From assembly GCF_902168435.1 (NCBI RefSeq), contig NZ_LR656166.1:62001-126000 (forward strand): 64,000 bases of DNA, given 5' to 3'. This document shows, in pieces, positions 40,207 through 57,077 of the stretch. This stretch comes from Bacillus marasmi. GTDB taxonomy: Bacteria > Bacillota > Bacilli > Bacillales > Cytobacillaceae. The notes below the pieces were generated by a model. That model was not told the DNA's origin. It saw only the letters and a program-made list of their open reading frames with translations, and searched no databases. The stretch's first letter is position 1; each line of letters begins with the position of its first letter. The translations under genes were made by a program, and so were the position numbers.

Positions 40207-40233
40207 TTTTTGTCTGGAAGGAGTAATAACGAG

Positions 40234-41952: not shown

Positions 41953-41972
41953 TAATGTTTGAAGAAGAAGTG

Positions 41973-42005: not shown

Positions 42006-42012
42006 TTTAGCC

Positions 42013-42340
42013 GATGTCATATGAAACAAAACTTCAAGTGAAAATAGGAGAAATGTGTCATAGAGGACTTCAATGAAACAATGCCCAAGGAAAAATAGGA
42101 GAAGTGTGTCATAGGAGACTTCATTGAAACAAAATTCCAAGAAAAATAAGGAGAAATGTGTCATGGGAGACTTCAATGAAACAAATCAACGAGAAAAATA
42201 AGGAGAAGTGTGTCATAGAGGACTTCAATGAAACAAAACTCCAAGAAAAATAAGGAGAAGTGTGTCATGGGAGACTTCAATGAAACAAATCAACGAGAAA
42301 AATAAGGAGAAATGTGTCATGGAGGCCACTGATGCGACAA
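42013..42340. repeat. 52-bp minisatellite array A (six to seven units)
   Basis: TGTGTC recurs at 42054, 42105, 42157, 42209, 42261 and 42313, a period of 51 then 52 bases. Each unit reads roughly GGAGAARTGTGTCATRGRGGACTTC followed by AATGAAACAAA and an A-rich tail; a degenerate first unit starts at 42013. Units alternate between variants (TAGAGGAC and TGGGAGAC). The period is not a multiple of three and frames in it are broken, so it is not coding. It fills the gap between cysI and the SDR gene. Confidence 0.9.
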
Positions 42341-42465
42341 ATTTTCGGAAAAAGAAAATGTAGTTTAGCATGAAGAGTTCGATGATACATAAAAAGGGTT
42401 TTATTGTAGAACAATACCATATGCCATGTGAATATTGGTTGATTTTTACAATAGGGGTTGTAGCG

Positions 42466-43251
42466 ATGGAATTAAATCTTAAAGGGAAAAATGCGTTGGT
42501 GATTGCGTCGAGTCAAGGATTGGGAAAAGCAGTTGCTGAAGCGCTAGTGGTTGAAGGGGCAAATGTTGTCATCACCAGCCGCGATGAGGTCAAACTCCAA
42601 CAGGTTCAGGAGGAATTAACAAGGGTAAATAAAGGACATGTCGTGTTTTTTAAGGCGGATATTACAAAGCAGGAGGATATCCAAAGCTTAGTAAGATTTA
42701 CGGTGGAAACGTTTGGGAGCATTGATATCCTCGTGAATAATGCCGGCGGACCACCAGGTGGAAAATTTGAGGAAATTACTGACGACCAATGGCAAGGTGC
42801 ATTTGAATTAAATTTATTAAGCTATATTCGATTGATTCGTGAAGTATTGCCTGAAATGAAGCAGCAAGGAGGCAGAATTATTAATATCGCATCGACCTCA
42901 ATTAAACAGCCGATACCAGGCTTGATTCTCTCAAACACATTCAGATTGGGGATTGTCGGTCTCACGAAAACATTAGCTGTTGAATTAGCACCGTACAACA
43001 TTCTTATTAATACGGTTGCACCTGGGCGAATTTCAACTGCAAGAACCCAGCATTTAGATCGATTGAACGCTGAACGGCAAGGCATCACACTTGAAGAGGC
43101 CACTGCACAATCGAAGAGGACGATCCCGCTTGGTAGGTATGGTACACCAGAGGAATTTGCAAAAGTGGTTACTTTCCTCGTTTCCGACGCGAGCACGTAT
43201 ATGACGGGCAGCTCGTTCATGGTTGATGGTGGGATGGTAACAGCGATTTAA
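42466..43251 (+). CDS. SDR-family protein with atypical active site (BKR-like)
   Basis: A 261-residue short-chain dehydrogenase-like protein. The cofactor loop is VIASSQGLGKAVAEAL (the first Gly of TGxxxGxG replaced), and NNAGGPPGG is conserved. At the catalytic place, where YxxxK is expected, it reads LSNTFRLG, so both Tyr and Lys seem absent; Ser of the triad region (IASTSIKQP) remains. A known SDR subgroup resembling ketoacyl-ACP reductase has the same deviations. Start is ATG 42466; the upstream frame lacks a ribosome site. The C-terminus (YMTGSSFMVDGGMVTAI) is normal. The reaction is unknown. Confidence 0.83.
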   Translation: MELNLKGKNALVIASSQGLGKAVAEALVVEGANVVITSRDEVKLQQVQEELTRVNKGHVVFFKADITKQEDIQSLVRFTVETFGSIDILVNNAGGPPGGKFEEITDDQWQGAFELNLLSYIRLIREVLPEMKQQGGRIINIASTSIKQPIPGLILSNTFRLGIVGLTKTLAVELAPYNILINTVAPGRISTARTQHLDRLNAERQGITLEEATAQSKRTIPLGRYGTPEEFAKVVTFLVSDASTYMTGSSFMVDGGMVTAI

Positions 43252-43310
43252 GTTAGGGATTCGAGAGGACACAGAATACCTTAATTGTTTGAAAAATCCT
43301 TTATTTTGAT

Positions 43311-43650
43311 GATTTGCGGACACCAGGGACCTTAATTAGTCGTAATCATGAAAATTTGACGGGACTTTGGGCAAATAGAGGATTCAATGTCCGCATCCCC
43401 CTCGAAAATACAGTAATTCGCACAAATAAGGGATTGGATGTCCGCTAAATATTGTTCATCGAATTAAGCGGACACCAAGTACCCTAATCGCAACAAAAAT
43501 CCTGTATCTTGGAGATTTGCGGACACCAGAGACCTTATTTAGTCAAAATCATGAAAGTTTGACAGGAGTTTGGCAAATAGAGGATTCAATGTCCGCATCC
43601 CCCTCGAAAATACTGGTATTTGCACAAATAAGGGATTGAATGTCCGCTAA
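43311..43650. repeat. Two 138-bp direct repeats with inverted ends ('GCGGACA' family, locus 2)
   Basis: The segments 43311-43448 and 43513-43650 match over their full length. Each starts with GATTTGCGGACACCAG and ends with TGTCCGCTAA, so each is palindrome-ended. A further AGCGGACA lies between them. Similar words occur at 10.6 and 47.9 kb. There is no reading frame. Together they fill the 412-base gap before the histidine phosphatase. Confidence 0.8.
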
Positions 43651-43663
43651 TGAAAACAATAGA

Positions 43664-44299
43664 TTAATAGAGTAATTTGCTGCCAGTTTCGCGGAATGAA
43701 GTGTCTGCTAACATATCAAGATTGGACTGCCCAGCATAGTGGCTAACGACTGAAACACTGCAGTTCTCAAGTTTTGGATATTGACTTAGCTTGTAGGCTT
43801 GCATTAAGTAATTACCAATCGTGACGCCATGAGAAAATATGAGAATATTTCCACCATCATCATGGTGGCGTGTGATTACATCATCAATGGCGGCTTTTGT
43901 TCGAGCAAAGACCTCCATAAAAGTTTCACCTTGTGGAGCTGCGAGATGTAAATCTTCCAAGCTAAATATGCGTTTTAGGAGTTCGCCGTCGTCGCCCTTA
44001 ATCTCTGGAATGACTTGACTTTCAAAAACACCAAAGCACATTTCTTTTAGGCGGGGGTCGGTTGTGAGTGGAATGTCTCTTGTATCTATTACATGTTTCG
44101 CCGTGCTGATTACCCGAGGGCTGTCACTTGCGTAGGCTGCTTTAAAATGAATATGCTCAAGCCCGCGTCCAACTGCTTTTGCCTGCATGATTCCATTTTC
44201 AGTTAATGGAGAGTCGGCGTGACCTTGTAATCGTTTTTCTACATTAAATTTCGTTTGACCATGACGAACAAAATAAAGTTTAACCGGCTTCTTTGGCAA
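43664..44299 (-). CDS. Histidine phosphatase family protein
   Basis: A 211-residue phosphoglycerate-mutase-fold phosphatase. The catalytic motif is LYFVRHGQTKFNVEKRLQGH (His at residue 12), with the second His in NILIFSHGVTIG and conserved Arg in YASDSPRVISTA. Bacillus relatives (PhoE/YhfR type) act on small phosphate esters with broad specificity. Start is a TTG at 44299, seven bases after AGAGGTG; an out-of-frame ATG lies at 44303. Alone on its strand. Confidence 0.85.
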   Translation of the reverse strand: MPKKPVKLYFVRHGQTKFNVEKRLQGHADSPLTENGIMQAKAVGRGLEHIHFKAAYASDSPRVISTAKHVIDTRDIPLTTDPRLKEMCFGVFESQVIPEIKGDDGELLKRIFSLEDLHLAAPQGETFMEVFARTKAAIDDVITRHHDDGGNILIFSHGVTIGNYLMQAYKLSQYPKLENCSVSVVSHYAGQSNLDMLADTSFRETGSKLLY

Positions 44300-44486
44300 A
44301 CATGAACACCTCTTTATTTTTAAAAAATATAAAGTCTATTATAATATGAAAAATTATTCTGTTCCACCATTTGAGATTTTTACGGAAAATATGCACAATA
44401 AATGAACAGAAAGTACAAACATTAGGCTATTTATCCAATCACGGACATTGTCCTATGAATATCTTTAAATAAGGAGGCGATGCCAT

Positions 44487-45920
44487 ATGAGTGTGAGAAA
44501 AGTGAAGCTTTCACAACTCCAACAAGAGGGTAAGGAGTATTTGCGAAAACAAAGGCTTCTTAGAGAAAGCCAACAGAAAAAAGAGAATCAGATAAATGAA
44601 GATGAGCAGCAAGTATCATCAATTCAGGAACCGTTAGCGGAGGAGCAACCACAAACAACGATACAGGAGCAAACAATACAAAACGTTCAGAGCAGTCCAC
44701 TACCACCCAATCAACAGCAACTTGTGCAAAACGTTCAGAGCAGTCCACCACCACCAAAACAACAGCAGCTTGTGCAAAACGTTCAAAGCAGTCCACCACC
44801 ACCAAAACAACAGCAGATTGTCCGAAACATCCAAAGCAAACAAGCGGAAATAATCCAGGAGCATGTTGTCCAAAGTAAGCCGACAGCTCCCGAGCAGGAG
44901 TCGGTAGCACAAAGTCAACCTAACCAAACAAAGCAACAAATCCCACCTGTTCAACAAACAACGCCAGCATCGCGAACTCAATCAAGGGTTACCGGAAATA
45001 AAATTCAAAGAAAAGTAACAAATCAAAAAGAAATATTTCATAATCAGCAGCCTCAGGAGCCTAATCCGATTTCCATCAAGAAAAGTGAACCTGCTCCACC
45101 GAAACAACAACTCATCACAAATCCACAGCTCATCACAAAACAGCAGCTTATCACAAATCAATCAGCACCAGTCACACCGAATGAACCAGTTGTGCATGAA
45201 CAACCAATACCTGCAAGTGAAGAAGAGTTGTCTAACTCTACAAATCAGCCGGTGCTAGCAAGTAAAACGACGATTTATGAGAATTATATATTGCCGGTTG
45301 AGGAAGAAATATCTGAAGAACAATTGCAGGTTGAAGAGGAAAATAGCCTGCTTAAAAAAGATTTACATGAATTGAATGAGGCGGGTAGTGTTATTTATAA
45401 AATACCCGTATTTTTCAGTCATCAAGATCTAAAAACGATCGGTCCGCCTGATGCTTCACCGCTTTCAGAAAACCAGCAATTTGTTATCCGGATGTTTAAG
45501 GAAATAAAAAATGTCATTCTTTTCCCAAGAACATTGCCAAATACAGAACAATTTCCTGATGCGAGAATCGATCATATTCGGACAATTGTTCAGGAGAGCT
45601 ATGGTACTGTCGCTGTGCTTGTTGAACCAACAGAAACAACATTTGGAGAACCATATAATCCATATTCTCAATTTGAACCGGCAATGGCGTACAACAACAA
45701 TCACCCTTTACTATTAGTTATTCAGGATAGCATGTCACAAAAAGCTGGTGGAGTGTGGGGGAGCACGCGTACAGTTGTACCATTCAGTCCGCTTGTTTGG
45801 CATTCTAAGTCAATGAGTGTGGATGAGTTCTTTGAGAGTTTAAAATGGAAGGAAGCGCTATTTAACTGGGCAAGTCAAGTCCGCAATCACTATTTTACCC
45901 AAACAGGTCAAAAAAGATAA
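44487..45920 (+). CDS. Pro/Gln-rich protein with a possible TIR/deoxyribosyltransferase-like C-terminal domain
   Basis: A 477-residue protein of unknown family. Residues 1-35 are basic and helical; about 40-290 are a disordered Pro/Gln/Glu linker with three exact 16-residue repeats. The C-terminal 170 residues are ordered: strand IPVFFSH (306-312), a helix with NQQFVIRMFKEIKN, ILFPRTLP, DARIDHIRTIV (358-368), GTVAVLVEP, then SQFEPAMAYNNNHPLLLVI with Glu397. The order strand, helix, 'DxI..I', 'VAVL', 'FExAxAYxxxxPLL' mirrors nucleoside deoxyribosyltransferase and TIR-like folds, where that Glu is catalytic. This is pattern inference. AAGGAGGCG precedes the ATG; a SIMPL gene follows. Confidence 0.7.
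   Translation: MSVRKVKLSQLQQEGKEYLRKQRLLRESQQKKENQINEDEQQVSSIQEPLAEEQPQTTIQEQTIQNVQSSPLPPNQQQLVQNVQSSPPPPKQQQLVQNVQSSPPPPKQQQIVRNIQSKQAEIIQEHVVQSKPTAPEQESVAQSQPNQTKQQIPPVQQTTPASRTQSRVTGNKIQRKVTNQKEIFHNQQPQEPNPISIKKSEPAPPKQQLITNPQLITKQQLITNQSAPVTPNEPVVHEQPIPASEEELSNSTNQPVLASKTTIYENYILPVEEEISEEQLQVEEENSLLKKDLHELNEAGSVIYKIPVFFSHQDLKTIGPPDASPLSENQQFVIRMFKEIKNVILFPRTLPNTEQFPDARIDHIRTIVQESYGTVAVLVEPTETTFGEPYNPYSQFEPAMAYNNNHPLLLVIQDSMSQKAGGVWGSTRTVVPFSPLVWHSKSMSVDEFFESLKWKEALFNWASQVRNHYFTQTGQKR
44680..44823 (+). repeat. Three 48-bp in-frame repeats in the Pro/Gln linker
   Basis: Units start at 44680, 44728 and 44776 and encode QNVQSSPxPPxQQQLV; a degenerate fourth follows. Near-identity at DNA level suggests recent expansion and possible length variation between strains. 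Confidence 0.85.
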
Positions 45921-45947
45921 ATGGGAAATCTTATTAATAAAAAAAAT

Positions 45948-45985
45948 ACAAGCTAACCGGTCATAATACTGGTTAGCTTATTGTT
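45948..45985 (+). terminator. Terminator after the Pro/Gln-rich gene
   Basis: AAGCTAACC at 45950-45958 pairs with GGTTAGCTT at 45971-45979, with an A-run before and a weak T-run after. Confidence 0.7.
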
Positions 45986-46053
45986 GCTCTGGTTGGAACG
46001 ATGGACACCCGAGGTTCATAAACTAGTGTCATAAGCAAAAAAGGGTGATTACG

Positions 46054-46776
46054 ATGCATCAAAACAATCATTATTTTGATACGGGAATAAGAGATCATGG
46101 ATACAAGCAGCAAGAAACAAACTCAAAAAAAAGTGGCCACTATCAAATGACGGTTCGTGGGAATGGTGAAGTTGCAGTCAGGCCAGATCAAGCAAAATTA
46201 ACCGTTGGAGTCGTGACGGAAAATCAAAATCTCGAAGATGCCCAGAGAGAAAATGCATTGTTGTCAAATCGGGTTATTCAGGCAATTAAACAGCACGGGA
46301 TTGAGGACCGTTTTATTAAAACTAGTCATTATTCGATTCAGCCACTATATGATTATGTCGGTGGAAAATCAGTATTTCGAACTTATCAAGTCGATCATCA
46401 AATCGAGGTGACGGTGAGAGATATACGTAAAGTTGGGTTAATTTATGAAGTTGCGATTAAGAACGGTGCAAACCGAGGCGGAAACGTTCAATTTATTGTT
46501 TCTAATCCGGACATCTATTATCGACAAGCGTTAAGAAAGGCCGTCCTAAATGCATCGGAAAAGGCAGAAGAAATTGCAAGAACGATTGGAGCAGTAATAA
46601 ACAAGCTACCAATTCGCGTTGTTGAAGAACTGGAGCAGCCAAATCGACCCATTCCATTTTCTACATATAAATTAGCTGCAGCAACAGTCCAGGAAGCACC
46701 ACCGATTCAACAAGGCGAATTCACAATTGATGCACAGGTGACGAGTACGTATCAATATCTACATCGCTATGCTTGA
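46054..46776 (+). CDS. SIMPL domain (DUF541) protein
   Basis: A 240-residue protein with the SIMPL domain from about residue 30: MTVRGNGEVAVRPDQAKLTVGVVTE, TSHYSIQPLYDYVGGKSVFRTYQV and AVLNASEKAEEIARTIGAVI. Family members (BP26-like) form oligomeric channels or rings and are often exported, yet no signal peptide is visible here, only a polar His/Asn-rich head. ATG 46054 is preferred, after AAGGGTGAT; GTG 46045 overlaps that site. Function is unknown. Confidence 0.85.
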   Translation: MHQNNHYFDTGIRDHGYKQQETNSKKSGHYQMTVRGNGEVAVRPDQAKLTVGVVTENQNLEDAQRENALLSNRVIQAIKQHGIEDRFIKTSHYSIQPLYDYVGGKSVFRTYQVDHQIEVTVRDIRKVGLIYEVAIKNGANRGGNVQFIVSNPDIYYRQALRKAVLNASEKAEEIARTIGAVINKLPIRVVEELEQPNRPIPFSTYKLAAATVQEAPPIQQGEFTIDAQVTSTYQYLHRYA

Positions 46777-46805
46777 TTGTTGTTAAGCATTAGCGATGTT
46801 TTTTA
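46761..46805 (+). terminator. Terminator of the SIMPL gene
   Basis: ACATCGCTATGCTT pairs with AAGCATTAGCGATGT and is followed by T's; the left arm is within the final codons. Confidence 0.8.
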
Positions 46806-46956
46806 CATAATGCATGCTTTTTGAAGATTTCAAAATGTTTCAAATTAATCCAACTAATTAAGGCGGATAAACCGGATTTGTTTGAAAATTTTTCACATAA
46901 AGGATTCCCAAGCCCAATTTTTTTGTATATAATAAACATATTAAAATAATAGTATC

Positions 46957-47086
46957 TATCTTCGGGGCAGGGTGTAATTCCCGACCGACGGTGTTGAGAA
47001 GAAATTCTCTAAGCCCGTGAGCCTTTTTAAGGCAGGATTTGGTGAGATTCCAAAGCCGACAGTAAAGTCTGGATGGGAGAAGATGG
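46957..47086 (+). promoter_or_regulatory. FMN riboswitch (RFN element)
   Basis: All RFN landmarks occur in order: ATCTTCGGGGCAGGGTG, TTCCCGACCGACGGT, AGCCCGTGAGC, GATTTGGTGAGATTCC, GCCGACAGT and the closing GGATGGGAGAAGAT. The outer arms ATCTTC and GAAGAT pair. A terminator follows at 47149-47178 and then ribU, so FMN should shut off riboflavin uptake. Confidence 0.96.
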
Positions 47087-47148
47087 AGGTTTAGTGGCGT
47101 TTATACAGTTTTAGACGTTTATTAAGCATACCTTCAAAATGAATTCTC

Positions 47149-47178
47149 CCTCAAGTTGATGCAACTTGAGGTTTTTTA
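47149..47178 (+). terminator. Riboswitch-controlled terminator before ribU
   Basis: CCTCAAGTTG and CAACTTGAGG pair with a three-base loop followed by T6; expression platform of the FMN riboswitch. Confidence 0.85.
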
Positions 47179-47253
47179 ATGGAATGAAAGTTTGGTAGCT
47201 TAATAACTAAATTCTCCCTTCTAGGAATGATAGATCCTTGTTGGAGGAGAAAA

Positions 47254-47841
47254 ATGATGAAGAAAAACAAAGTAAGAGGATTAGTTTCAATTGCCATGCT
47301 GAGCAGTATCGCGTACATTTTAATGTTCCTAAATTTTCCGGTACCACCTTTTCCAGCATTTTTGAAAATTGATTTTAGTGATGTTCCTGCGTTGATTGGA
47401 GCAATCGTCCTTGGTCCTATGGCCGGCGTCTTAATCGAATTAATGAAAAACGTATTGGATTATTTTATTAAAGGTAGTGAAACCGGCGTTCCTGTTGGTC
47501 ATATTGCTAATTTCTTAGCCGGAATTTTATATATTTTACCAACTTATTATGTTTATAATAAGCTAAAGTCGAAAAAGGGCATGACAGTTGCGCTCGTACT
47601 AGGAACAACGATTATGGCAGTTGTGATGAGTGTCTTAAACTATTTAATTATTTTACCAGCTTACACATTCTTCCTTAACATGCCAGCAATGAGTGGCCCA
47701 GAAGTGAAAGAGTATATCGTGGCCGGAATTCTGCCATTTAACTTAATTAAAGGCGTTGCGATGTCCGTTCTATTCATGATTCTCTTTACAAAGTTAGGAA
47801 CTTGGTTGAACAAGCAAGCAGCAAGCTTCCGTTTGAACTAA
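47254..47841 (+). CDS. ribU: Riboflavin ECF transporter S component RibU
   Basis: A 195-residue membrane protein with about six helices that binds riboflavin and works with the general ECF energising module encoded elsewhere. Family segments are IAYILMFLNFPVPPFPAFLKIDFSDVPALIG, GVLIELMKNVLDYFI and GVPVGHIANFLAG. ATG 47254 follows GGAGGAG; the frame extends upstream into the leader but without support. Control by the FMN riboswitch upstream confirms the substrate. Length fits B. subtilis RibU (190). Confidence 0.95.
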   Translation: MMKKNKVRGLVSIAMLSSIAYILMFLNFPVPPFPAFLKIDFSDVPALIGAIVLGPMAGVLIELMKNVLDYFIKGSETGVPVGHIANFLAGILYILPTYYVYNKLKSKKGMTVALVLGTTIMAVVMSVLNYLIILPAYTFFLNMPAMSGPEVKEYIVAGILPFNLIKGVAMSVLFMILFTKLGTWLNKQAASFRLN

Positions 47842-47852
47842 AATAAAAAAGA

Positions 47853-47896
47853 ACGAGGCTGTCCCTAAGTTTAAACTTTTGGGACAGCCTCTTTTA
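47853..47896 (+). terminator. Terminator of ribU
   Basis: GAGGCTGTCCC pairs with GGGACAGCCTC around an AT-rich loop and is followed by T's. Confidence 0.88.
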
Positions 47897-47904
47897 TGTT
47901 TTTT

Positions 47905-48090
47905 TCCGGACACTGAGTCCACTATTAAGATAAAAAAGGCCGATTTGAACATATTTCCGGACATTGAGAATGTTATTTGTTATAAAAATCATGATAATAA
48001 CGATCATCAAGCTAAATTAGGGATTACATGTCCGATAAGATAAGAAAATCGTAATTTTTAACAAAATAGCGGTATGTATGTCCACCTAAT
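47905..48090. repeat. 'CGGACA' repeat remnant, locus 3
   Basis: CCGGACACTGAG and CCGGACATTGAG on the left, with AATTAGGGATTACATGTCCG on the right, repeat the inverted-end pattern of the clusters at 10.6 and 43.3 kb in a more diverged form. No frame is present. Confidence 0.5.
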
Positions 48091-48107
48091 CACGCCTCTG
48101 ATTCACC

Positions 48108-49679
48108 CTATTCCACAAGAATATGCTCCATGCCTTTTCCAATCTCTATCGGCTTTCCGATGCTATCATCTGCGGTAGCTTTGTATATTTCTACAAAATC
48201 AGCACGGTTTTTCCCTCCAAATACCTTTATTCCGGGTCCAGCATTAAGAAAATTCCTCATCACAATCTGATTCAATACGATATTTCTAGCTCGATACTGA
48301 ATCGCACATAGCGGGTTTCCCTGAAAATCAGAGGTTGAGTCACCTACAATCGACATCCTATTAATTACCACATTTCGATAAGCGGAAATAACTAATGCTC
48401 GAGGTGTAGAATCTTTATATAAATGGGAATAGCATGGTGCAATTGACACAAGCTGTGTCGCGAGAATATTAAATGCCGATTTTGATTGGGCATCATCATG
48501 CTTGTGATGTCCTATATGCCTAAAATTGTATGAACGGTTATCATGAACTGAAATATGCCCGACAATTTGCACATTAGATGCAGCCGAGGAGTTTCCATGA
48601 GCTTTGATTTCCACTCCACCAAAACAACGAGCAGTAGAGTTGTGAACGAGTAAAACATTTCGGGAACCATCATCAATTTCTATACCGTTTGAGTTGGAAA
48701 AGCCCTTCTGATGAGCGCGGCCGCTAGGGTCACACATATGACAATGTGAAATGTATAGGTAATCACTATGATGTGTGGTGATTCCATCGTCACCAAATCC
48801 ATATCCGGTTAAACCGTCAAGCCAAACGTAGCTGCTGCTGCCACGAGCGCGATAGCCATCGCCACCGTAATTATACTTAGTGGCTGAAATATCAAAGCAA
48901 TGCAAACCAGGATTGATAGCCTCTACATCCTTGACCCAGCCATAGGTGACATTCGCGAAAGTGAGGCAGCTTGAAGCATTGCCGCCTGAGTTTGTTTTTT
49001 CGCTAGAATCAAGTCTTTCAACATTCCAATCCAAACTCATACAGCCAACATAGATATGATGATTCCCAAGCCATTGCTGCGTATTCGTAATGAGCTGCGT
49101 TGCTTTTGGGGAAGAATCGTGTAGCTTTATGGTCGTCACACCTTTACCAGCACCAACCAATATCGTCCAGGAGGGAAGCTGTATGCTTTTCACGCTGAAA
49201 ATTCCTTCTGGTACGATTACTTTTACTCGTCCTTTTCCAATTGCTTTTTTAAAAGCAGCTGTATTATCCGTTTTACCATCACCAATTGCGCCAAAATCAA
49301 CTACATTCACTTCTGCTTCGATTTTTCCTAATAAAGTTTGATACTCAGAATTCAAAGTATCCATCCAATCGGGAACGATTCTTCCTCGTTTGTCAATTTT
49401 GGTAGAAGTTCGTTCAAGAACAGCAGAAGGCTTAGCGTTAAGACGCCACAATCCCTCAGTGATTCGTTGTTTAATTGGAAGCGCGAATTCCGGTGATGGG
49501 GGGCTTTTCACTGGGGAAATAGAAACATTTTGGGAAGTAATTTTAGCGAAGAATTCTTCCGTTTCACACAAAGCTGTATCTAAATCAGAACAGTGATTAA
49601 AATATTGGCTAATAAGCTGTTCGTTATTTTCGGGGTTATGAGTTTTTGTTAACATTAACCCCTCATTCTCTTTAGGCAT
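48108..49679 (-). CDS. Parallel beta-helix protein, pectate lyase 3 / tailspike-like
   Basis: A 523-residue protein. From about residue 100 the classic start of the Pectate_lyase_3 family appears: VNVVDFGAIGDGKTDNTAAFKKAIG, then VKVIVPEGIFSVKSIQLPSWTILVGAGKGVTTIKL. Beta-helix rungs follow with Asn/His-rich turns (YGFGDDGITTHHSDYLYISHCHM, SNSNGIEIDDGSRNVLL). Such folds act as polysaccharide lyases, hydrolases or tailspikes. There is no signal peptide. The start at 49679 overlaps the stop of the DUF1992 gene (TAATG); an ATG at 49655 behind GAGGGG is an alternative. No phage genes lie nearby, so a phage origin is not supported. Confidence 0.82.
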   Translation of the reverse strand: MPKENEGLMLTKTHNPENNEQLISQYFNHCSDLDTALCETEEFFAKITSQNVSISPVKSPPSPEFALPIKQRITEGLWRLNAKPSAVLERTSTKIDKRGRIVPDWMDTLNSEYQTLLGKIEAEVNVVDFGAIGDGKTDNTAAFKKAIGKGRVKVIVPEGIFSVKSIQLPSWTILVGAGKGVTTIKLHDSSPKATQLITNTQQWLGNHHIYVGCMSLDWNVERLDSSEKTNSGGNASSCLTFANVTYGWVKDVEAINPGLHCFDISATKYNYGGDGYRARGSSSYVWLDGLTGYGFGDDGITTHHSDYLYISHCHMCDPSGRAHQKGFSNSNGIEIDDGSRNVLLVHNSTARCFGGVEIKAHGNSSAASNVQIVGHISVHDNRSYNFRHIGHHKHDDAQSKSAFNILATQLVSIAPCYSHLYKDSTPRALVISAYRNVVINRMSIVGDSTSDFQGNPLCAIQYRARNIVLNQIVMRNFLNAGPGIKVFGGKNRADFVEIYKATADDSIGKPIEIGKGMEHILVE

Positions 49680-50065
49680 TATTTTTCTTCCTTCTTTTTA
49701 AATCGTTCTAATACTCGCTCTTTATAGTAGGCAGATGCAGGGCTAGCCATCGTTCTCCGCTTTTTTAGCAAGGCATCAAGGCGCAATTGTTTTTCGCTTT
49801 TTTCTTGTTTAAGCCGGTCTCTGTCCGCATCGTCCTGACTGGCATCAATAAGCTGATCGATGGTCATCAGTTCTTGTCTCAATGCATCATATTCCTCAAT
49901 CATATTTGCATTTTTTAAAAGTGAATAAGCCATCCGAAGCTCTTCTGGAATATGGGAATGATCATCCAATTTCAAAGGTTTACCTATACCGGGCAGATTG
50001 TCAAATTCCCCATTTTCCATAGCGCGGCGAATTTTATCTTGTGCAATTATTGAAAACATATCCAT
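49679..50065 (-). CDS. DUF1992 (DnaJ-homologue subfamily C28-like) protein
   Basis: A 128-residue protein with the whole DUF1992 domain in its first 75 residues: MFSIIAQDKIRRAMENGEFDNLPGIGKPL and HIPEELRMAYSLLKNANM. The rest is a charged coiled coil (DRDRLKQEKSEKQLRLDALLKKRR) with a Lys/Glu tail. The function is not established despite the DnaJ name; no J domain is present. AAGGAG lies ahead of the ATG. Its stop overlaps the next start, so the beta-helix gene is coupled to it. Confidence 0.85.
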   Translation of the reverse strand: MDMFSIIAQDKIRRAMENGEFDNLPGIGKPLKLDDHSHIPEELRMAYSLLKNANMIEEYDALRQELMTIDQLIDASQDDADRDRLKQEKSEKQLRLDALLKKRRTMASPASAYYKERVLERFKKKEEK

Positions 50066-50232
50066 AAATCACCAACTCCTTCCTATAGTATAACGATTCT
50101 GAGTATTTTTTGCTCCATTGATGAGGGGATTACCTATTAAAATATCCGATAATGGTTAAATTGATTAATATTGATTCGCTCATCGAGCTTGATAAGAACC
50201 GATTTGAAAAATGCCATTACATGGAGGTTACT

Positions 50233-50751
50233 ATGAATGAAGTAGAAATGATTTTAACTATTATCGTCATAAATATTACATACGTTTCCCTTTTTACAAT
50301 ACGTCTTTTGTTTGTCATGAAGGGACAGAATATTTTAGCTTCGATCATCAGTGTTTTTGAAGTTGCCATTTATCTTATTGGGTTGAACATCGTTTTGGAT
50401 AATATCGATAAAATACAGAACTTAGTTGCCTATTGCCTTGGTTGGGGGAGCGGTGTATATCTTGGAAGTAAGATTGAGCAGTGGCTAGCATTGGGTTACG
50501 TGACGATACAAATTGTTATAGATAAAAATGATGTTGAGGTTCCATTTATATTAAGGGAAAAGGGATTTGGTGTCACGAGCTGGGAAGCTGAGGGTAGAGA
50601 TGGAAATCGCTTGGTGATGCAAGTATTGGCTAAGCGAAGCAATGAAAAGAGATTACTAAAGATTATTGAAAATAGGGTACCAAAAGCATTCGTCGTCTCG
50701 TATGAACCAAGATATTTCCGAGGTGGATTCTGGACAAAAAAATTACTGTAA
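50233..50751 (+). CDS. UPF0316/YebE-type membrane protein with DUF2179 domain
   Basis: A 172-residue protein. Three hydrophobic helices (about residues 5-25, 35-55 and 60-80) include YVSLFTIRLLFVMKGQ and GWGSGVYLGSKIEQWLALG. A C-terminal cytosolic DUF2179 domain (KGFGVTSWEAEGRDGNRLVMQVLAKR) follows. GGAGG lies just before ATG 50233; the frame is open 81 bases upstream but that part lacks a site and is not conserved in style. Function is unknown; DUF2179 is thought to bind small ligands. Confidence 0.87.
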   Translation: MNEVEMILTIIVINITYVSLFTIRLLFVMKGQNILASIISVFEVAIYLIGLNIVLDNIDKIQNLVAYCLGWGSGVYLGSKIEQWLALGYVTIQIVIDKNDVEVPFILREKGFGVTSWEAEGRDGNRLVMQVLAKRSNEKRLLKIIENRVPKAFVVSYEPRYFRGGFWTKKLL

Positions 50752-50791
50752 GTGCAAAAACTTACCCTGATTAATGTGGAGATAAAAATGA

Positions 50792-50827
50792 TAAGGTGGT
50801 CTTTATCCAATCGACCGCCTTTTTTTA
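50792..50827 (+). terminator. Terminator of the UPF0316 gene
   Basis: AAGGTGGTC pairs with GACCGCCTT (one G-T pair), then T7. Confidence 0.85.
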
Positions 50828-50901
50828 GAGGAAATGAGGCAAATATATCGTCTATCGGTTATGGTATTATGTTGATGTAACTTATGATGGGGGAGAACAA
50901 G

Positions 50902-51603
50902 ATGTATAAAATTGCCTTAGTTGAAGATGATCCCGAATTAAGATTAATCATCTCTAAAATGTTGCTGCGATATCAATATGAGGTGGTTGTGATAAAGGAA
51001 TTCAATAACGTAGTCGAGCAGCTAATCGAAATTAGTCCAGATGTGATTCTTCTCGATATTAATCTACCGTATTTAGACGGTTTTCATGTTTGCAGAGCAA
51101 TGAGGAAGAAAAGCAGTGTCCCAATTATTATAACGTCAGCTCGAAGTACCGATGCGGATCAAATACTAGGAGTGGAGTTAGGGGCAGATGATTATGTGGT
51201 TAAGCCCTTTAGCGTTGAAGTGCTTCAGTCAAAAATCAAAGCCTGTATCCGTAGAGCCTATGGCAGCTTTCAGACAGAAAAAACCAATCAAATTATCGGT
51301 GATTTTCAGCTAGATTTTAATACGTTTACTGTAACGTATCAGAACAAGCGAAATGAACTGACGAAAAATGAGTTTAAGATATTAAAGTATTTATCGGAAA
51401 GACCGAGTGTCATTGTGCCACGTGAAGATTTATTAACTGAGCTGTGGGATGATGTCGCGTTCGTTGATAACAATACCCTTAATGTTAACATTTCTAGAAT
51501 AAAAACGAAGCTGGCTGTCATCGGCCTTAATGAAGCTATTCACACAAAGAGGGGCTATGGTTATCAATTTGTCCCGTATTGGTTGGAGCTCCAAAATGAA
51601 TAG
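50902..51603 (+). CDS. Response regulator, BceR-like (OmpR family)
   Basis: A 233-residue regulator. The receiver has the acidic pair VEDDPEL, the phospho-acceptor Asp in VILLDINLPYLDGF (near residue 52), Thr/Ser in ITSARS and Lys in VVKPFS. The C-terminal winged helix (about 130-230) ends with IHTKRGYGYQFV. ATG 50902 follows GGGGGAG. The kinase gene overlaps its stop by eight bases, and a BceAB-type transporter follows, giving the standard antimicrobial-peptide sensing order. Confidence 0.93.
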   Translation: MYKIALVEDDPELRLIISKMLLRYQYEVVVIKEFNNVVEQLIEISPDVILLDINLPYLDGFHVCRAMRKKSSVPIIITSARSTDADQILGVELGADDYVVKPFSVEVLQSKIKACIRRAYGSFQTEKTNQIIGDFQLDFNTFTVTYQNKRNELTKNEFKILKYLSERPSVIVPREDLLTELWDDVAFVDNNTLNVNISRIKTKLAVIGLNEAIHTKRGYGYQFVPYWLELQNE

Positions 51604-52630
51604 ACGGATTTTCGTTGATTTTTTGAAGGATCAATTATTCTTTACACTAACATACTATGGTGGTGCTTCGCTTGTTATCGTTTTTTATACACTAGAAATA
51701 GGCGAAAAGCTGGAATACTTCTATCCGATTTTACTGGTAAGTTTCGTTTATCTTTTATTTATTTGTGAGCGGGCAGTTCGATATTGGCGATATTGCCACT
51801 TATTAGACAGTTTCCAAGCTGGAATTGGCGATAGAAAGCCTCGTGTTAATACCTTAACAAATGAACAACAGCGAGCGTTTGCCACGATTAGCAGATTAGA
51901 AAAAGAGGCCTTAACTAGTCTTAATGGGCTTGAGATGCAAAATGACCATAGACATAAGGTGATCTCACAAATTATCCATAATATTAAAACGCCGACATCA
52001 GTGATTGATTTACTAATCCAAAATAGTAAACAGGATGGTCAACTAACGATCGAGGTGCTTGAAAAAATAAATAAGGAAAATCGCCTAATTAATGAAAACC
52101 TCAATAGTGTACTAAGCTACTTACGTCTAGATTATTTTCAACAGGATTTTTCGATTGAGGAAACAAATCTAGTAAAAGAGCTCCGCGAAATGATTAATAA
52201 AAAGAAGGATCAGTTCATTCAAAATGGTGTATTTCCGAAGCTATGCGTTTCCGAGAAAAATGTATCAATTTTAACAGATAAAAAATGGAACAGATTACTA
52301 ATTGAACAAATCATTTCGAATGCGATAAAGTACACAGCCATACAAGAAAGTGAAAGAATCGTTAAGTTTCGGATTTGCCAAGAAGAGAATACGATTCAAT
52401 TAATCATTGAAGACAATGGTATAGGCATTTCACCTTATGAAATAAAAAGGGTATTTGAGCCATTTTTTACAGGTGAGAACGGTCGGAAGACGCGAAATGC
52501 CACCGGAATCGGTTTATTTATCGCAAAAAAAATCGCCGATTCGCTTCACCATAAGTTGTCGATATCCTCGATACAGGGAATGGGCACCACCGTGGCGATT
52601 ACATACCCAATGAAACATCATGATAACTAG
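51596..52630 (+). CDS. Intramembrane-sensing histidine kinase, BceS-like
   Basis: A 344-residue kinase with two close membrane helices (about residues 12-35 and 42-60) and almost no extracellular loop, typical of BceS-type kinases that sense through their ABC transporter. The phospho-acceptor box is SQIIHNIKTPTSVIDL (His near 121); N, G1 and G2 boxes are IISNAIKYT, DNGIGISPYEIKRVFEPFFTG and TGIGLFIAKKIA. ATG 51596 overlaps the end of the regulator gene. The longer upstream frame lies inside that gene and is spurious. Confidence 0.93.
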   Translation: MNRRIFVDFLKDQLFFTLTYYGGASLVIVFYTLEIGEKLEYFYPILLVSFVYLLFICERAVRYWRYCHLLDSFQAGIGDRKPRVNTLTNEQQRAFATISRLEKEALTSLNGLEMQNDHRHKVISQIIHNIKTPTSVIDLLIQNSKQDGQLTIEVLEKINKENRLINENLNSVLSYLRLDYFQQDFSIEETNLVKELREMINKKKDQFIQNGVFPKLCVSEKNVSILTDKKWNRLLIEQIISNAIKYTAIQESERIVKFRICQEENTIQLIIEDNGIGISPYEIKRVFEPFFTGENGRKTRNATGIGLFIAKKIADSLHHKLSISSIQGMGTTVAITYPMKHHDN

Positions 52631-52649
52631 TAAAAGACAATAGTTTTCC

Positions 52650-52663
52650 TTACAAAATTGTAA
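52650..52663. promoter_or_regulatory. BceR-type operator
   Basis: TTACAAAATTGTAA is a perfect palindrome of the TNACA-N4-TGTAA form known for BceR-like regulators. It sits just upstream of the transporter promoter; a half-site-like TTACTGTAA follows at 52666. Confidence 0.75.
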
Positions 52664-52684
52664 TGTTACTGTAAGTTAGCGTAA

Positions 52685-52713
52685 TTGTAACATCGTTCTT
52701 GCCTTACTATAAT
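52685..52713 (+). promoter_or_regulatory. Promoter of the BceAB-like operon
   Basis: TTGTAA at 52685-52690 and TATAAT at 52708-52713, 17 bases apart. The weak -35 beside a BceR-type palindrome fits an activator-dependent promoter. Confidence 0.7.
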
Positions 52714-52746
52714 AGCCTTACATTCAGAAACGTGTAGGAGGTAACC

Positions 52747-53511
52747 ATGAGTATCATTAAGGCAAGTAACATCAAAAAAGTATACGGCGGCGGTAAGGAT
52801 TTTGCCGAAACAATCGCCTTACATAATATTAATCTTGAACTTGAAGCAGGGGAGTTCACGGCGATTATGGGACCATCGGGGAGCGGGAAATCCTCATTGT
52901 TGAAAATATTAAGTGGTTTTGATCAAGCTACATCAGGAGATATTTTTATCGATGGGAAAAGTCTTGGTAGGATGACAGGGGACGAACTGTCCATATTTCG
53001 ACGTTCGCATATAGGTTATATTTTTCAAGAATTCAATCTGCTCGACAGCTTAACCATCCAAGAAAATATCATGCTACCGATGATCTTAAATCGGGAAAAG
53101 AACGCTGTGATGAACAAAAAGGCCGAACAATTGATGGAGCTCTTAAACATTACTAGTTTGAAAAATAAATATCCCTATCAGGTGTCAGGAGGACAGCAAC
53201 AACGCACCGCAGTTTGCCGAGCGTTGATCAATGACACTTCAGTCATTTTTGCTGACGAGCCAACCGGGAACTTGGATTCAAAATCCTCAAAGGCTGTTTT
53301 AGAATGCTTGAAAAAGACGAGCGAACAACTTGGTACGACAATATTGTTGGTCACTCATGACCCGTTTGCTGCGAGCTACAGTGATAAAGTTTTGTTTTTA
53401 AAGGACGGTGTCATCCGGACACAACTTTACAAAAAGGAATCACAAGATTTGTTTGCTAAGCAGATTCTCGATCATTTGGCGCTGCTGGAGGAAGATGATT
53501 ATGACCTATAA
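52747..53511 (+). CDS. ABC transporter ATPase, BceA-like
   Basis: A 254-residue ATPase of the peptide-resistance type. Walker A GPSGSGKSS (near residue 39), Q-loop FQEFNLLDSL, signature VSGGQQQRTAVCRAL and Walker B VIFADEPTGNLDSK are present. AGGAGG precedes the ATG. Its stop overlaps the permease start by eleven bases. With the permease it removes or inactivates bacitracin-, nisin- or lantibiotic-like peptides and signals their presence to the kinase. The specific peptide cannot be told. Confidence 0.93.
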   Translation: MSIIKASNIKKVYGGGKDFAETIALHNINLELEAGEFTAIMGPSGSGKSSLLKILSGFDQATSGDIFIDGKSLGRMTGDELSIFRRSHIGYIFQEFNLLDSLTIQENIMLPMILNREKNAVMNKKAEQLMELLNITSLKNKYPYQVSGGQQQRTAVCRALINDTSVIFADEPTGNLDSKSSKAVLECLKKTSEQLGTTILLVTHDPFAASYSDKVLFLKDGVIRTQLYKKESQDLFAKQILDHLALLEEDDYDL

Positions 53512-55492
53512 TCAATTCATCTTCAAATCGATGCTGTTTAATTATCGAAAATACTTAGGCTATTTTTTCTGTGTCACTTTTTCGATGACCGTATTTTTCC
53601 TGTTTTCAGCGATTTGGTTTGTCCCTGATTTTTCAGAGCAAGCTTCATCCGGGACAAGACAAATTGTCCAAATTGGTGGTATTATTTCGGTTATTTTTTC
53701 GTTGTTTTTAATTACTTATTCTTATCAACACTTTTTCAAAAGTCGCACAAAGGAAGTGGGGATATTGCTCTCGTACGGCATGCTCCATCGCGACTTAAAG
53801 CAAATGATAACATTAGAGAATACGGTAGTTTTTCTTTTATCATTGATATTTGCTTATATTTGTGGCGGGATTTTTTCGAGGCTATTTTTCATTTTAACTA
53901 CAGCGATATTAGGTCTTGATGAGATTAGCTTTTCACTCACCTACAAGAGCTTTGTTTATACAGCGCTCATGTTTCTACCTCTTTATTTGCTTATTGTCTT
54001 GATGACGATAGTAAAAATCAAGAAGGTTAGTCTGACGTCGTTGCTCAAAGAAAGTCAAGTCGTGGAAATGAAGCAAAAAGGGAACAAGCTTATAGCAGTT
54101 ATTGGCTTTGTGATTATGGTAGGTTCATTAGTGTTTTTGTATGATTACACTAGTGATTTTGCTAATGTGGCCTCAATGAAGAAGGCCATTTTAGTGTCGC
54201 TCCTGTTTTGCGTTTTCGGAATGTATCTTTTCCTCAGTCATTTAATCAGTCTTTTATACCGTTATTGGAATAATCGTAAGTCAGTATTTCTGCGAAATAT
54301 TTTGCCTTTGTCTGAATTTGCCAATCGGTTTTCGCAAAATCGTTCGATTATGTTTATGGTCAGTATGCTTTGTATGGGTATTGTGTTTTTTTCGACGCTC
54401 TCCTACACGCTTTATCAGCAAAGCCCTGCTCTTGCCGATGAGGAACAATGGTTTGATGTGATTGTTAAGGATATTGAGGCTGTTGGATTAACAAATATGA
54501 TGGATATTGAAAAAATTACAAAGAAATCGATGGTAAAGCCTTCGGAAAAACATAAATTACACGTGGTTTATGTGGAAGCGCCAGAGATAAACCATACATC
54601 ATGGCGCACGAATAAAACAGTAATGACAAGTTCGGTTTCAGAATTTAATAAGATATTTTCTGCTCGCTTTAAAGTTGCGACTGGCGCAGCCATTGTTGTC
54701 GATTTTAATCAATCGGGTGAAGGGGATATCAAGTATTTTAGCAAAAATATTACCTTAATAAGTGATGATGAAGCTTATCAGTTTGTGCATCAAAAAACGG
54801 TGCAAAAAAAGCTGTTTGATCGCTACGTCTTTGCCCAGCCCGTCTTAGTAATCTTAAACGATGAGGATTATAAGGATTTATCCGCTACTGTCACACCTGC
54901 TTCAGTTGGTAGTATTGAAATGTTTAAGTTTAACAATTGGCACCAAAGTGGTGATTTTGTTGCAGGCTTGCAGGAGGAAATGGAAGCCGCACAGTCTAAG
55001 TTGACTGATAGTGAGAAGCTTGCTGTTAAATCGATTACGGAGCAACAGATTATGCCGTTTGCTGTTCATTCGAAGTATGATCGATATGTTCATATGAAAC
55101 AGGTTGCCGGCTTTGCTCTATTTATCATGTCTTTTATCAGTGTGTTATTCTTGTTGACCGTTTGCGTTGTGCTTTACTTCAAGATTTTTACGGATCAAGA
55201 AGGGGACATTCGCAAAGTTCAACTGCTGCACACGATCGGTATTACGACCGGAGAAGTTAAGAGCTACTTGTATAGTAAAATTAAACTTGTGATGGTCCTG
55301 CCAACCATGCTTGGGGGCTTGATGGGCTTAGTGTTAACAGTAGCCATCAATATGCAAAATGTAACAGAGATGGAAATGGCAAATAGTACGATTTTTTCCA
55401 ATGGCTTAAAGATTTGTGCGTTATTATTGCTTTTTTTCGTCGTATATTATCAATGGCTAAAATTGAAATATCGCCGCGCTATTGTAGGATAG
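53501..55492 (+). CDS. ABC transporter permease, BceB-like
   Basis: A 663-residue permease with about ten helices. A large extracellular domain of some 210 residues lies between helices 7 and 8 (about 310-520), the hallmark of BceB-type transporters and the part that fixes peptide specificity. FtsX-like segments are FFKSRTKEVGILLSYGMLHRDLK near residue 75 and KVQLLHTIGITTGEVKSYL near 575. GGAGGAAG lies seven bases before ATG 53501. A longer frame inside bceA is an artefact. Confidence 0.92.
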   Translation: MTYNQFIFKSMLFNYRKYLGYFFCVTFSMTVFFLFSAIWFVPDFSEQASSGTRQIVQIGGIISVIFSLFLITYSYQHFFKSRTKEVGILLSYGMLHRDLKQMITLENTVVFLLSLIFAYICGGIFSRLFFILTTAILGLDEISFSLTYKSFVYTALMFLPLYLLIVLMTIVKIKKVSLTSLLKESQVVEMKQKGNKLIAVIGFVIMVGSLVFLYDYTSDFANVASMKKAILVSLLFCVFGMYLFLSHLISLLYRYWNNRKSVFLRNILPLSEFANRFSQNRSIMFMVSMLCMGIVFFSTLSYTLYQQSPALADEEQWFDVIVKDIEAVGLTNMMDIEKITKKSMVKPSEKHKLHVVYVEAPEINHTSWRTNKTVMTSSVSEFNKIFSARFKVATGAAIVVDFNQSGEGDIKYFSKNITLISDDEAYQFVHQKTVQKKLFDRYVFAQPVLVILNDEDYKDLSATVTPASVGSIEMFKFNNWHQSGDFVAGLQEEMEAAQSKLTDSEKLAVKSITEQQIMPFAVHSKYDRYVHMKQVAGFALFIMSFISVLFLLTVCVVLYFKIFTDQEGDIRKVQLLHTIGITTGEVKSYLYSKIKLVMVLPTMLGGLMGLVLTVAINMQNVTEMEMANSTIFSNGLKICALLLLFFVVYYQWLKLKYRRAIVG

Positions 55493-55504
55493 AAGTGGAG
55501 CTTA

Positions 55505-55538
55505 GAGCTTAGGACTAAAAACGGTCCTAAGCTTTTTC
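55505..55538 (+). terminator. Terminator of the bceAB-like operon
   Basis: AGCTTAGGAC pairs with GTCCTAAGCT and ends in T5. Confidence 0.85.
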
Positions 55539-55613
55539 GTTACTTCGTGTATTAAAAATATGATGGAGGAAAATTTAAAAGGGTTAAGATTCGTGTCGAA
55601 AGGGTTTGAAGTG

Positions 55614-56570
55614 ATGAGAATTCGGTTTGGCTATGTAGCAAATGCCTTAGGTTTATGGGACGCTAGTCCTTCGAAATCATTAACCTTTGCAAGATATTCC
55701 ACACTTTCTGAGGATGAACGATTAAATAAACTACATGAGGTCACAAAGGATAATCTTGAGCACACAAAGCGGATTCTCCATTATAACATTGCACACGAAA
55801 TCCAATTGTATCGATTCTCAAGCTCGCTCGTGCCTTTAGCGACTCATCCCGAAGTAGCTTGGGATTTTGTGACGCCATTTAAGGCAGAGTGGGCGGAGCT
55901 CGGAAGGCTTGTTACGGAATTTGGGATTCGTCCAAGCTTTCATCCTAATCAGTTTACTCTTTTTACCAGTCCTCGTCATGATGTGACGAATAACGCTATA
56001 AAGGATATGGAGTTTCATTTTCGAATGCTTGAAGCAATGGGTGTTGTCGATCATGCCGTAATCAATATCCATATAGGTGGAGCTTATGGTGATAAAAATG
56101 AGACATTATTGCGTTTTCATCAAAATATTGCCGGGCTACCAAAACAGATTAAACAGATCACATCACTTGAAAATGATGATAAAACGTATAATGTAAAGGA
56201 AACATTAGTGGCATGCGAACAGGAAGGGATGCGGATGGTGCTTGACTATCATCACCATCTCGCAAATCTTTCCGAAGAGGAGCTTGATGCTTCTTTATTG
56301 GAGAGGATATTTATGACATGGCAACGGTCAGGACTTGTGCCTAAAGTGCATATTTCTTCACCTAAGTCAGAATCCGCGTTCCGGTCACATGCGGATTTTG
56401 TGGATTTGGAATTTGTGCTACCTTTTTTGAAAACGGCTAAAGCGCTAAATCAAGATTTTGACATTATGATTGAAGCGAAGCAGAAGAATCTAGCGATGCA
56501 CAAACTTGTTGAAGATATTTCATCGATTCGGGGCGTGAAAAGGATTGGTAGCTCAGAGGTGGAATGGTAG
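55614..56570 (+). CDS. uvsE: UV damage endonuclease UvsE (copy 1)
   Basis: A 318-residue TIM-barrel nuclease that nicks DNA 5' of UV photoproducts and some abasic sites. The N-terminus MRIRFGYVANALGLWDASPSK fixes the family. Metal-ligand segments are RPSFHPNQFTLF, INIHIGGAYGDK, TSLENDDKTY, VLDYHHHL, KVHISSPK and IMIEAKQKN. ATG 55614 gives the usual start; the frame opens 54 bases earlier at another ATG. A second, diverged uvsE lies convergently 550 bases away. Spore-formers carry UvsE for UV tolerance. Confidence 0.93.
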   Translation: MRIRFGYVANALGLWDASPSKSLTFARYSTLSEDERLNKLHEVTKDNLEHTKRILHYNIAHEIQLYRFSSSLVPLATHPEVAWDFVTPFKAEWAELGRLVTEFGIRPSFHPNQFTLFTSPRHDVTNNAIKDMEFHFRMLEAMGVVDHAVINIHIGGAYGDKNETLLRFHQNIAGLPKQIKQITSLENDDKTYNVKETLVACEQEGMRMVLDYHHHLANLSEEELDASLLERIFMTWQRSGLVPKVHISSPKSESAFRSHADFVDLEFVLPFLKTAKALNQDFDIMIEAKQKNLAMHKLVEDISSIRGVKRIGSSEVEW

Positions 56571-56606
56571 GTCTATGTAAAAATTCAAATACAAATTTCT
56601 AGTTGG

Positions 56607-57025
56607 TTGCTATTCATTACCCTAGCGGGGGTTTTTGTCCTTTAGATGGTGTGAATAGCGCCTAATCATTACTCTAGTGGGGATTTTTGTCCTCTAGCTG
56701 GTGTGAATAGCACATAATCAATACCCTAGAATAGATTTATGTCGTCTAGCTGGTGTGAATAGCACTTAATCATTACTCTAAGTAAGTTTTTTGTCCTCTA
56801 GCTGGTGTGAATAGCGCCTAATCATTACTCTAGTGGGGATTTTTGTCCTCTAGCTGGTGTGAATAGCACTTAATCATTACTCTAAGTAAGTTTTTTGTCC
56901 TCTAGCTGGTGTGAATAGCACTTAATCATTACTCTAAGTAAGTTTTTTGTCCTCTAGCTGGTGTGAATAGCACTTAATCATTACTCTAGAATAGATTTAT
57001 GTCGTCTAGCTGGTGTGAATAGCAC
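56607..57025. repeat. 52-bp minisatellite array B (eight units)
   Basis: GGTGTGAATAGC recurs at 56648, 56700, 56752, 56804, 56856, 56908, 56960 and 57012, exactly 52 bases apart each time. The unit runs through CTAATCATTACTCTA, a variable middle (GTGGGGA, AGTAAG or GAATAGA) and TTTGTCCTCTAGCT. No frame persists. It lies between the two convergent uvsE genes and fills most of that gap. Confidence 0.93.
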
Positions 57026-57028: not shown

Positions 57029-57077
57029 TTTTGTTGCTTTACAACAAAACCTAGTGCTCAAAAAGTGGCACTAGGTA
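57029..57077. terminator. Twin hairpins after array B
   Basis: TTTTGTTG and CAACAAAA pair, then ACCTAGTGC (57049-57057) pairs with GCACTAGGT (57068-57076). They could end transcripts from both convergent uvsE genes. Confidence 0.55.

Follow-up and report, generated by a model that had tools for sequence, protein, structure and literature searches.

Introduction

The nearest known kind of element to the repeats described here is the repetitive extragenic palindromic (REP) sequence and its clusters, the bacterial interspersed mosaic elements (BIMEs). Passages of one account name IHF and DNA gyrase as interaction partners of BIMEs and report that BIMEs contain REPs in alternating orientations, that REP palindromes are preserved in a manner suggesting complementary mutations, and that the length of some parts of Stenotrophomonas clusters, apparently those between REPs, differs considerably (PMC2817692). 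A related repeat class is placed at the 3' ends of transcription units by the title of a reference cited in a second source (PMC12306157). We analyzed two tandem arrays, A and B, in a window of 64,000 nucleotides from Bacillus marasmi (positions 62,001 to 126,000 of contig NZ_LR656166.1, assembly GCF_902168435.1), together with similar arrays elsewhere in this genome and in related genomes. Like BIMEs, these arrays are clusters of imperfect palindromes in extragenic DNA. In contrast to BIMEs, their units run head to tail at a near-fixed period of 51-53 bp and have array-specific arms. We tentatively interpret the arrays as BIME-like stacks of dyad sites for a putative dimeric DNA-binding protein, located near the 3' ends of genes.

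Other described systems share single features with the arrays. As in clustered regularly interspaced short palindromic repeats (CRISPR), a 27-bp palindromic repeat alternates with a spacer of similar size; however, the spacers here are copies of each other and the center of the repeat is variable. A preliminary description of A and B, made from the sequence of the window, had held that their spacers are unlike those of a CRISPR. This stands, as the variation of spacers within arrays is about 0.10 (about 10%) and they are therefore not unique, and we rejected a CRISPR on that basis. In the ParB-binding site parS the two halves are adjacent, and the A-type half-sites TGTTTCAT / ATGAAACA resemble them. 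The A-type halves, in contrast, are about 9-11 bp apart, and most other arrays are unlike parS; the resemblance is probably a coincidence. The repeats bcr1, Bant-1 and Bhal-1 are likewise stem-loop repeats in Bacillus genomes; these families measure 72-167 bp, and the word "tandem" is absent from the text of the paper that describes them (PMC2267715). We found no 52-bp arrays of Bacillaceae in the literature searched, a search whose coverage excluded most subscription journals and which is weak evidence of novelty.

The 52-bp period across the genome

Tandem Repeats Finder, run on the window, reported array A at 42021-42324 (period 52, 5.9 copies, 83% matches, score 401) and array B at 56632-57025 (period 52, 7.6 copies, 87% matches, score 571). 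Separately measured anchor spacings were 51, 52, 52, 52 and 52 bp between units of A and 52 bp at all seven steps in B. The two methods confirm the 52-bp repeat given for both arrays in the preliminary description, with one 51-bp step in A. Its statement that both are non-coding also holds, since no frame is open through either array and each lies between genes.

Searches of the B. marasmi genome (4.64 Mb, 46 contigs) with A and B revealed more arrays, nearly all of period 52 and belonging to several unit families. For a systematic sample we drew 40 evenly spaced stretches of 20 kb each from contigs C13, C16, C21, C23, C25 and C27; these contigs were chosen among those named by earlier array searches, and the density obtained is perhaps somewhat high. 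Genes, here and in the counts of location, are our own calls of open reading frames of at least 100 codons. The sample and the window together (864 kb) contain 45 non-coding arrays with a period of at least 18. Their periods are 52 (22 arrays), 53 (six), 50 and 51 (one each), 20-21 (six), 40-41 (three), and 32, 38, 118, 123, 126 and 204 (one each). Outside the window (800 kb), 26 of 43 arrays have a period of 52-53, which indicates that the period common to A and B is not due to chance. A broad spread of periods had been named beforehand as the observation that would speak against a common role, and the periods instead cluster at 52-53. Period alone, which is mostly 51-53 bp with 51, 52 and 53 all represented, suggests that the units are phased at five helical turns.

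In the 800 kb, arrays of period 50-53 number 28, with 245 units covering 12,773 bp. By extrapolation, the whole genome would contain about 160 such arrays; A and B belong to this set and are not an isolated pair. If the extrapolation holds, the set comprises about 1,400 units and about 1.6% of the genome length. The arrays could be used as markers for strain typing. As for carriage on mobile elements, a search with a single B-type array, L064, returned no matches in plasmids or phages.

A 27-bp dyad in most units

We scanned 55 array consensus units of period 50-54 for inverted repeats and compared their strength with that in shuffled sequences. The mean best match was 6.78 of 9 positions at a span of 27 bp and 6.75 at a span of 29 bp, against about 5.3 in shuffles (5.31 for span 27). 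Odd spans lay above shuffles, with 41 and 43 as mirror values, and even spans were at chance. Given the maximum at span 27, we describe the unit as a 27-bp dyad plus a 25-bp spacer (26 bp in the 53-bp class). Most units, and most arrays, contain such a dyad, composed of a 9-bp half-site, a 9-bp center and a second 9-bp half-site, with the half-sites 18 bp apart center to center. Examples are GGTAACCAT-9-ATGGTGCCC, TGAACTCAT-9-ATGAGTTCA, GGTCACTAA-9-GTAGTGACC and TGTATCTCA-9-TGGGATACA.

Half-sites differ between arrays and follow a loose motif, KGnMnYnWW, in the 45 of 55 consensuses that have at least 6 matches (dyads under 6/9 were dropped, with no minimum number of units). Among these 45, G occupies position 2 of the half-site in 76%, compared to 20% in shuffles given the same selection. 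Dyads were chosen without a bonus for this G in the span scan, the motif count and the count of variation in 24 arrays described below; a bonus or requirement for it entered only the matched/mismatched, gene-oriented, outer-edge and in-phase counts.

A and B had been called unrelated. The letters of their units do differ, but many arrays, A included, share the dyad plan and the loose half-site motif, and B fits the plan weakly. The octamer GTCCTCTA, proposed as a link between A and B, is the sole octamer common to both. It occurs five times in B and, as its reverse complement, only twice in A rather than in several units; with at least one shared octamer in 73% of column-shuffled array pairs, we attribute it to chance.

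Variation within arrays

Variation was counted in 24 arrays with 228 units, after arrays of fewer than 4 units and dyads under 7/9 were dropped, as they were for the outer-edge and inward-pairing counts. Half-sites vary at 0.029, centers at 0.087 and spacers at 0.104, about 3.5 times less variation in half-sites than in spacers, in a count that takes the best-matching dyad of each array and thereby somewhat favors low half-site variation. Half-site variation is below spacer variation in 23 of the 24 arrays (p = 4e-7), although these are not independent (four share TGAACTCAT, and L093 is the ortholog of L095) and for L045 and L016 the dyad taken was probably not the right one. By position, the profile shows two low-variation blocks of nine positions. 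On the outside they end abruptly: beyond the 27 bp, variation is 0.092 at complementary positions, close to the 0.107 of non-complementary positions. The constraint follows the symmetry, ends at a fixed outer edge and has no signature of RNA wobble.

If these dyads are protein sites, each unit would offer a 27-bp dyad for one dimer of the putative DNA-binding protein, followed by a 25-26-bp spacer. At this spacing of five helical turns, successive dimers would share a face of the DNA, and cooperative binding or wrapping of the DNA could follow. The putative protein would tolerate differing half-sites, or would have co-evolving relatives that match them. The earlier suggestion of a protein-binding or chromosome-structure role, or of a shared copying mechanism, belongs to the right family of explanations, with a period that is genome-wide, a dyad in most units and positions at gene 3' ends.

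Several observations weigh against this interpretation. The best span-27 match is 5 or lower in 10 of the 55 consensuses, and the dyad of B, TGTCCTCTA / TGTGCTATT, is weak, with 5-6 matches of 9. The period is not strictly fixed, as 50, 51 and 53 occur and one array of the same-genus genome G001 has 47. In counts without arrays of fewer than 4 units and dyads under 6/9, mismatched half-site positions vary at 0.096, about as much as spacers (0.101), and matched positions at 0.026. Contiguous pairing that extends inward from the half-sites is kept, with 4 changes in 196. The last two observations fit a hairpin as well. Finally, a single protein with a single motif does not lead one to expect half-sites that are nearly fixed within an array yet differ between arrays.

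The main rival explanation is a selfish hairpin satellite, since conservation goes with complementarity and the half-sites are not the same in all arrays; we consider it somewhat unlikely. A structure-recognizing enzyme (HUH or RAYT-like, the latter denoting REP-associated tyrosine transposases), or replication and repair of single-stranded DNA hairpins, would amplify units with paired arms. Any paired arms would do and unpaired units would drop out, leaving letters that vary and a geometry that is shared, and gene 3' ends would merely be where such DNA is tolerated. The contrast between matched and mismatched positions agrees with this explanation, as does the kept inward extension of the stem. 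Matched positions are the less variable at 8 of 9 positions, and of 70 single changes at mismatched positions, 38 bring back a pair. However, variable positions are likelier to be mismatched in the consensus, which inflates the contrast between matched and mismatched positions. Changes at paired positions comprise 23 of the G-T and 20 of the A-C type, 30 transversions and one compensatory double, the last standing against 73 single changes inside arrays. A hairpin satellite also does not account for the base preferences common to the half-sites, for the lack of conserved outward pairing or, by itself, for the 52 bp.

Phase is kept across half-site changes inside one array. Locus L034 has 12 dyads of the GGTAACCAT/GGGCACCAT type and then, at exactly 52 bp, 7 of the GGTAACGAT/GGGCACGAT type. 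A few units have further changes; the blocks differ at position 7 of both half-sites, which are both C in one block and both G in the next, as a hairpin satellite would have it. Blocks of TGTTTCATG, TGAACTCAT and TGTCCGTAT make up a single array at L007, with junction steps of 103 and 104. At L008 a distance of 156 bp, or 3 x 52, separates an A-type dyad (1507) from the first TGAACTCAT dyad (1663); an additional dyad at 1629 is spurious, and the dyads flanking it are in phase. The higher-order periods 104 and 156 reported by Tandem Repeats Finder reflect block duplication, also in keeping with a satellite.

We searched for Y1_Tnp in 20 genome entries and inspected 20 stretches around such genes. 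It was found in 17 of the 20 entries (G004 equals G151 in the results, and they are probably one genome). The two Y1_Tnp genes of the B. marasmi genome, on C27 and C4, which we take to be RAYT-like from their size and neighboring palindromes, adjoin palindromes other than those of the arrays, and Tandem Repeats Finder reported no tandem array around them. One of 18 stretches around Y1_Tnp genes of other genomes (L187) contains a 52-bp array, of 2.2 copies. The search found no Y1_Tnp in C. firmus DS1, a genome in which a 53-bp unit forms a short array of 2.3 copies. With other palindromes at both B. marasmi genes, a RAYT origin of the arrays is not supported. The RAYT-like genes at L180 3600-4660 and L181 4130-5120 have palindromes of their own (GGGGACTGTCCCC; GGTGCCTGTCACC), and in other genomes arrays of 38-39 bp with a similar palindrome occur near RAYT-like genes (L188 4584-4773, L197 255-389).

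Position relative to genes

The location of 29 arrays of the systematic sample, including A and B, was determined. Convergent gene pairs hold 13 of them, compared to 4.1 expected from intergenic length (p = 7e-5), and divergent gaps hold one, compared to 6.0 expected (p = 0.02); the remaining 15 lie between tandem genes. Of these arrays, 28 have a gene 3' end next to them, the nearest lying a median of 76 bp away. A separate count, with 22 of 39 arrays in convergent gaps, includes arrays recruited by similarity and neighbors counted apart; the systematic count is 13 of 29. If the arrays bind a dimeric protein, it may have a role in DNA topology or insulation where convergent transcription meets.

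Location at 3' ends would also suit RNA elements. The arrays would be transcribed, by read-through or in antisense, into strings of hairpins that act in the stability of mRNA 3' ends, in control by Rho or in termination of antisense transcripts. In 13 arrays of tandem context the sense strand of the spacers is rich in purines (0.63, compared to 0.51 in array-free tandem intergenic DNA), and by eye a T-run follows the dyad in some units when the antisense strand is read. Nevertheless, this explanation is improbable. Arrays oriented by the neighboring gene, again of at least 4 units and with dyads of at least 6/9, have no excess of wobble changes (9 G-T and 10 A-C), and arm mismatches comprise 29 transitions and 51 transversions. 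The wobble tests gave no signal, and an RNA hairpin is not favored. No Rfam family matches at A or B at the gathering score, among five matches in the window. A terminator-like hairpin lies in the interval from gene to array in 16 of 36 cases, compared to 90 of 188 control ends; this is no enrichment, and the count also led us to reject arrays as post-terminator elements. For A and B we further rejected type III toxin-antitoxin RNA arrays (ToxI-like): the neighbors are cysI, a short-chain dehydrogenase gene and two uvsE genes, with no toxin gene.

Arrays in related genomes

Non-coding arrays of similar period occur in several relatives. The periods found were 19, 21, 47, 51, 52 and 90 in G001 (400 kb); 19, 20, 21, 24, 51 and 52 in N. 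drentensis JC05 (400 kb); 20 (two), 21 (two), 41, 52, 60 and 145 in Cytobacillus oceanisediminis (200 kb); 20, 34, 52 (two) and 103 in Mesobacillus campisalis (100 kb); 21 (two) and 40 in Peribacillus deserti (100 kb); and 19 and 21 in Alkalihalophilus pseudofirmus (200 kb). In 200 kb of B. spizizenii there were no non-coding tandem arrays. Those of period 60, 90 and 145 resemble repeats of coding or tRNA sequence. The 47-bp array of G001 (L091 8074-8403, 7 copies, 69% matches), which is off the 52-bp norm, contains GGTAAC. With a B-type array as query, 151 genomes yielded 52-bp arrays in G020 and G074, two further genera of the family, and no match at E 1e-5 in the remaining genomes, four of the same genus included.

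Loci around cysI, 80 in number (1.63 Mb), contain 11 arrays with a period of 51-53 or 40-41 (L092, L093, L095, L096, L100, L115, L147, L151, L166, L168 and L171), in 6 of which one or more of the six reading frames is open. Directly behind cysI, at the place of array A, five relatives have arrays with different units: DNRA2 (53), M. campisalis (52), Bacillus sp. 03113 (41), C. oceanisediminis (41) and P. deserti (40). The comparison for uvsE, which matched in 44 of 61 genomes, covered the best 30 loci. Behind uvsE, at the place of B, 6 of these 30 have 51-53-bp arrays, namely B. marasmi itself (52), DNRA2, G001 and G023 (51 each), G033 (52, with 20.6 copies) and G028 (53, with 15.3 copies). 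Three others have arrays of 20, 21 and 42 bp, one has a 21-bp array about 600 bp off, and 20 have none.

One 52-bp array is common to N. drentensis JC05 (6.9 copies) and Bacillus sp. ISL-18 (5.3 copies) and is not at that place in two N. cucumis genomes or in Bacillus sp. USDA818B3_A. The conservation of units between relatives that had been proposed as a check is thus seen in this array, and not behind cysI and uvsE, where other species have arrays with different units. Arrays gain and lose units. The shared array (L093 7720-8010, L095 7630-8000) reaches the 3' end of the upstream gene, and the stop codon of that gene seems to be provided by the first unit of the array.

Differences in copy number between relatives would be expected of neutral minisatellites, slippage duplications with a built-in step of about 52 bp that persist behind genes in DNA free of constraint. 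Such repeats may be tolerated in convergent gaps, and the 20-21-bp and 40-42-bp arrays have comparable locations. Neutral slippage, like RNA hairpins, is a less likely explanation, and we regard it as very improbable: it does not lead one to expect two conserved blocks of nine positions flanked by variable DNA, a common half-site preference, or the 27-bp odd-span dyad that we found in several genera.

It is conceivable, if rather doubtful, that the arrays are a new Bacillaceae class in which the architecture (27-bp dyad, five-turn period and gene-end position) is inherited and the recognition sequence drifts between arrays. Half-sites would then have to match each other within an array, and not a fixed motif. 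Such a class would imply a factor that reads structure or symmetry, or a fast-diverging set of binding proteins, organizing convergent gene ends. A system in which period, dyad and position are kept while the sequence turns over is unusual and can be tested directly; it points to a factor that organizes the chromosome or insulates transcription, or else to a selfish repeat whose geometry is strict.

Features of the window and further repeats

Array A lies after cysJI and before the short-chain dehydrogenase gene, and array B lies between two convergent uvsE genes (Table 1). The layout of the convergent uvsE pair (55560-58091) is the same in the same-genus genomes G002 and G004, by match coordinates.

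Table 1. Arrays A and B, their dyads and neighboring features, in window positions
Feature	Position	Strand	Evidence
cysJ, before cysI	38344-40206		TIGR01931, 869 bits
cysI, upstream of array A	40210..41952	+	TIGR02041, 934 bits
Terminator-like hairpin and T-run, gap between cysI and array A	41970..42007	+	
Array A, six anchored units, period 52 (one 51)	42013..42340	+	repeat finder and anchors
27-bp dyad of A unit, half-sites TGTGTCATA / TGTTTCATT	42054..42080	.	7/9 matched
Further A-unit dyads	starts 42105, 42157, 42209, 42261, 42313		6-7/9 matched
Short-chain dehydrogenase, downstream of array A	42370..43251	+	
uvsE (UV damage endonuclease), left of array B	55560..56570	+	TIGR00629, 352 bits
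Array B, eight anchored units, period 52	56607..57025	+	repeat finder and anchors
Weak 27-bp dyad of B unit, TGTCCTCTA / TGTGCTATT	56688..56714	.	6/9 matched
Further weak B dyads	starts 56844, 56896, 56948, 57000		5/9 matched
Terminator-like hairpin of convergent uvsE paralogue, adjoining array B	57049..57076	-	
Second uvsE paralogue, convergent, right of array B	57126..58091	-	TIGR00629, 243 bits

The Rfam matches in the window are 6S RNA (5066-5262), a thiamine pyrophosphate (TPP) riboswitch (11897-12011), the small RNA BsrF (15182-15297), a flavin mononucleotide (FMN) riboswitch (46954-47088) and a T-box leader (59510-59731). Tandem repeats of 39 and 48 bp at 1709-1860 and 44679-44838 have open frames and are probably protein-coding.

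A second non-coding class of arrays has a period of 20-21 or 40-42 bp, about two and four helical turns; several contain ATAA, and some lie directly behind genes. Members are at L038 6966-7079, L040 16166-16318, L047 10019-10112 and 16742-17031, L056 13880-13949, L068 8126-8218 and L069 13944-14018, and in L147, L166 and L168. Non-coding units of 123 and 126 bp, in 3 copies each, occur at L037 16617-16988 and L063 16335-16709 and have CTCGAGGTCTTAAG, or nearly this sequence, in common.

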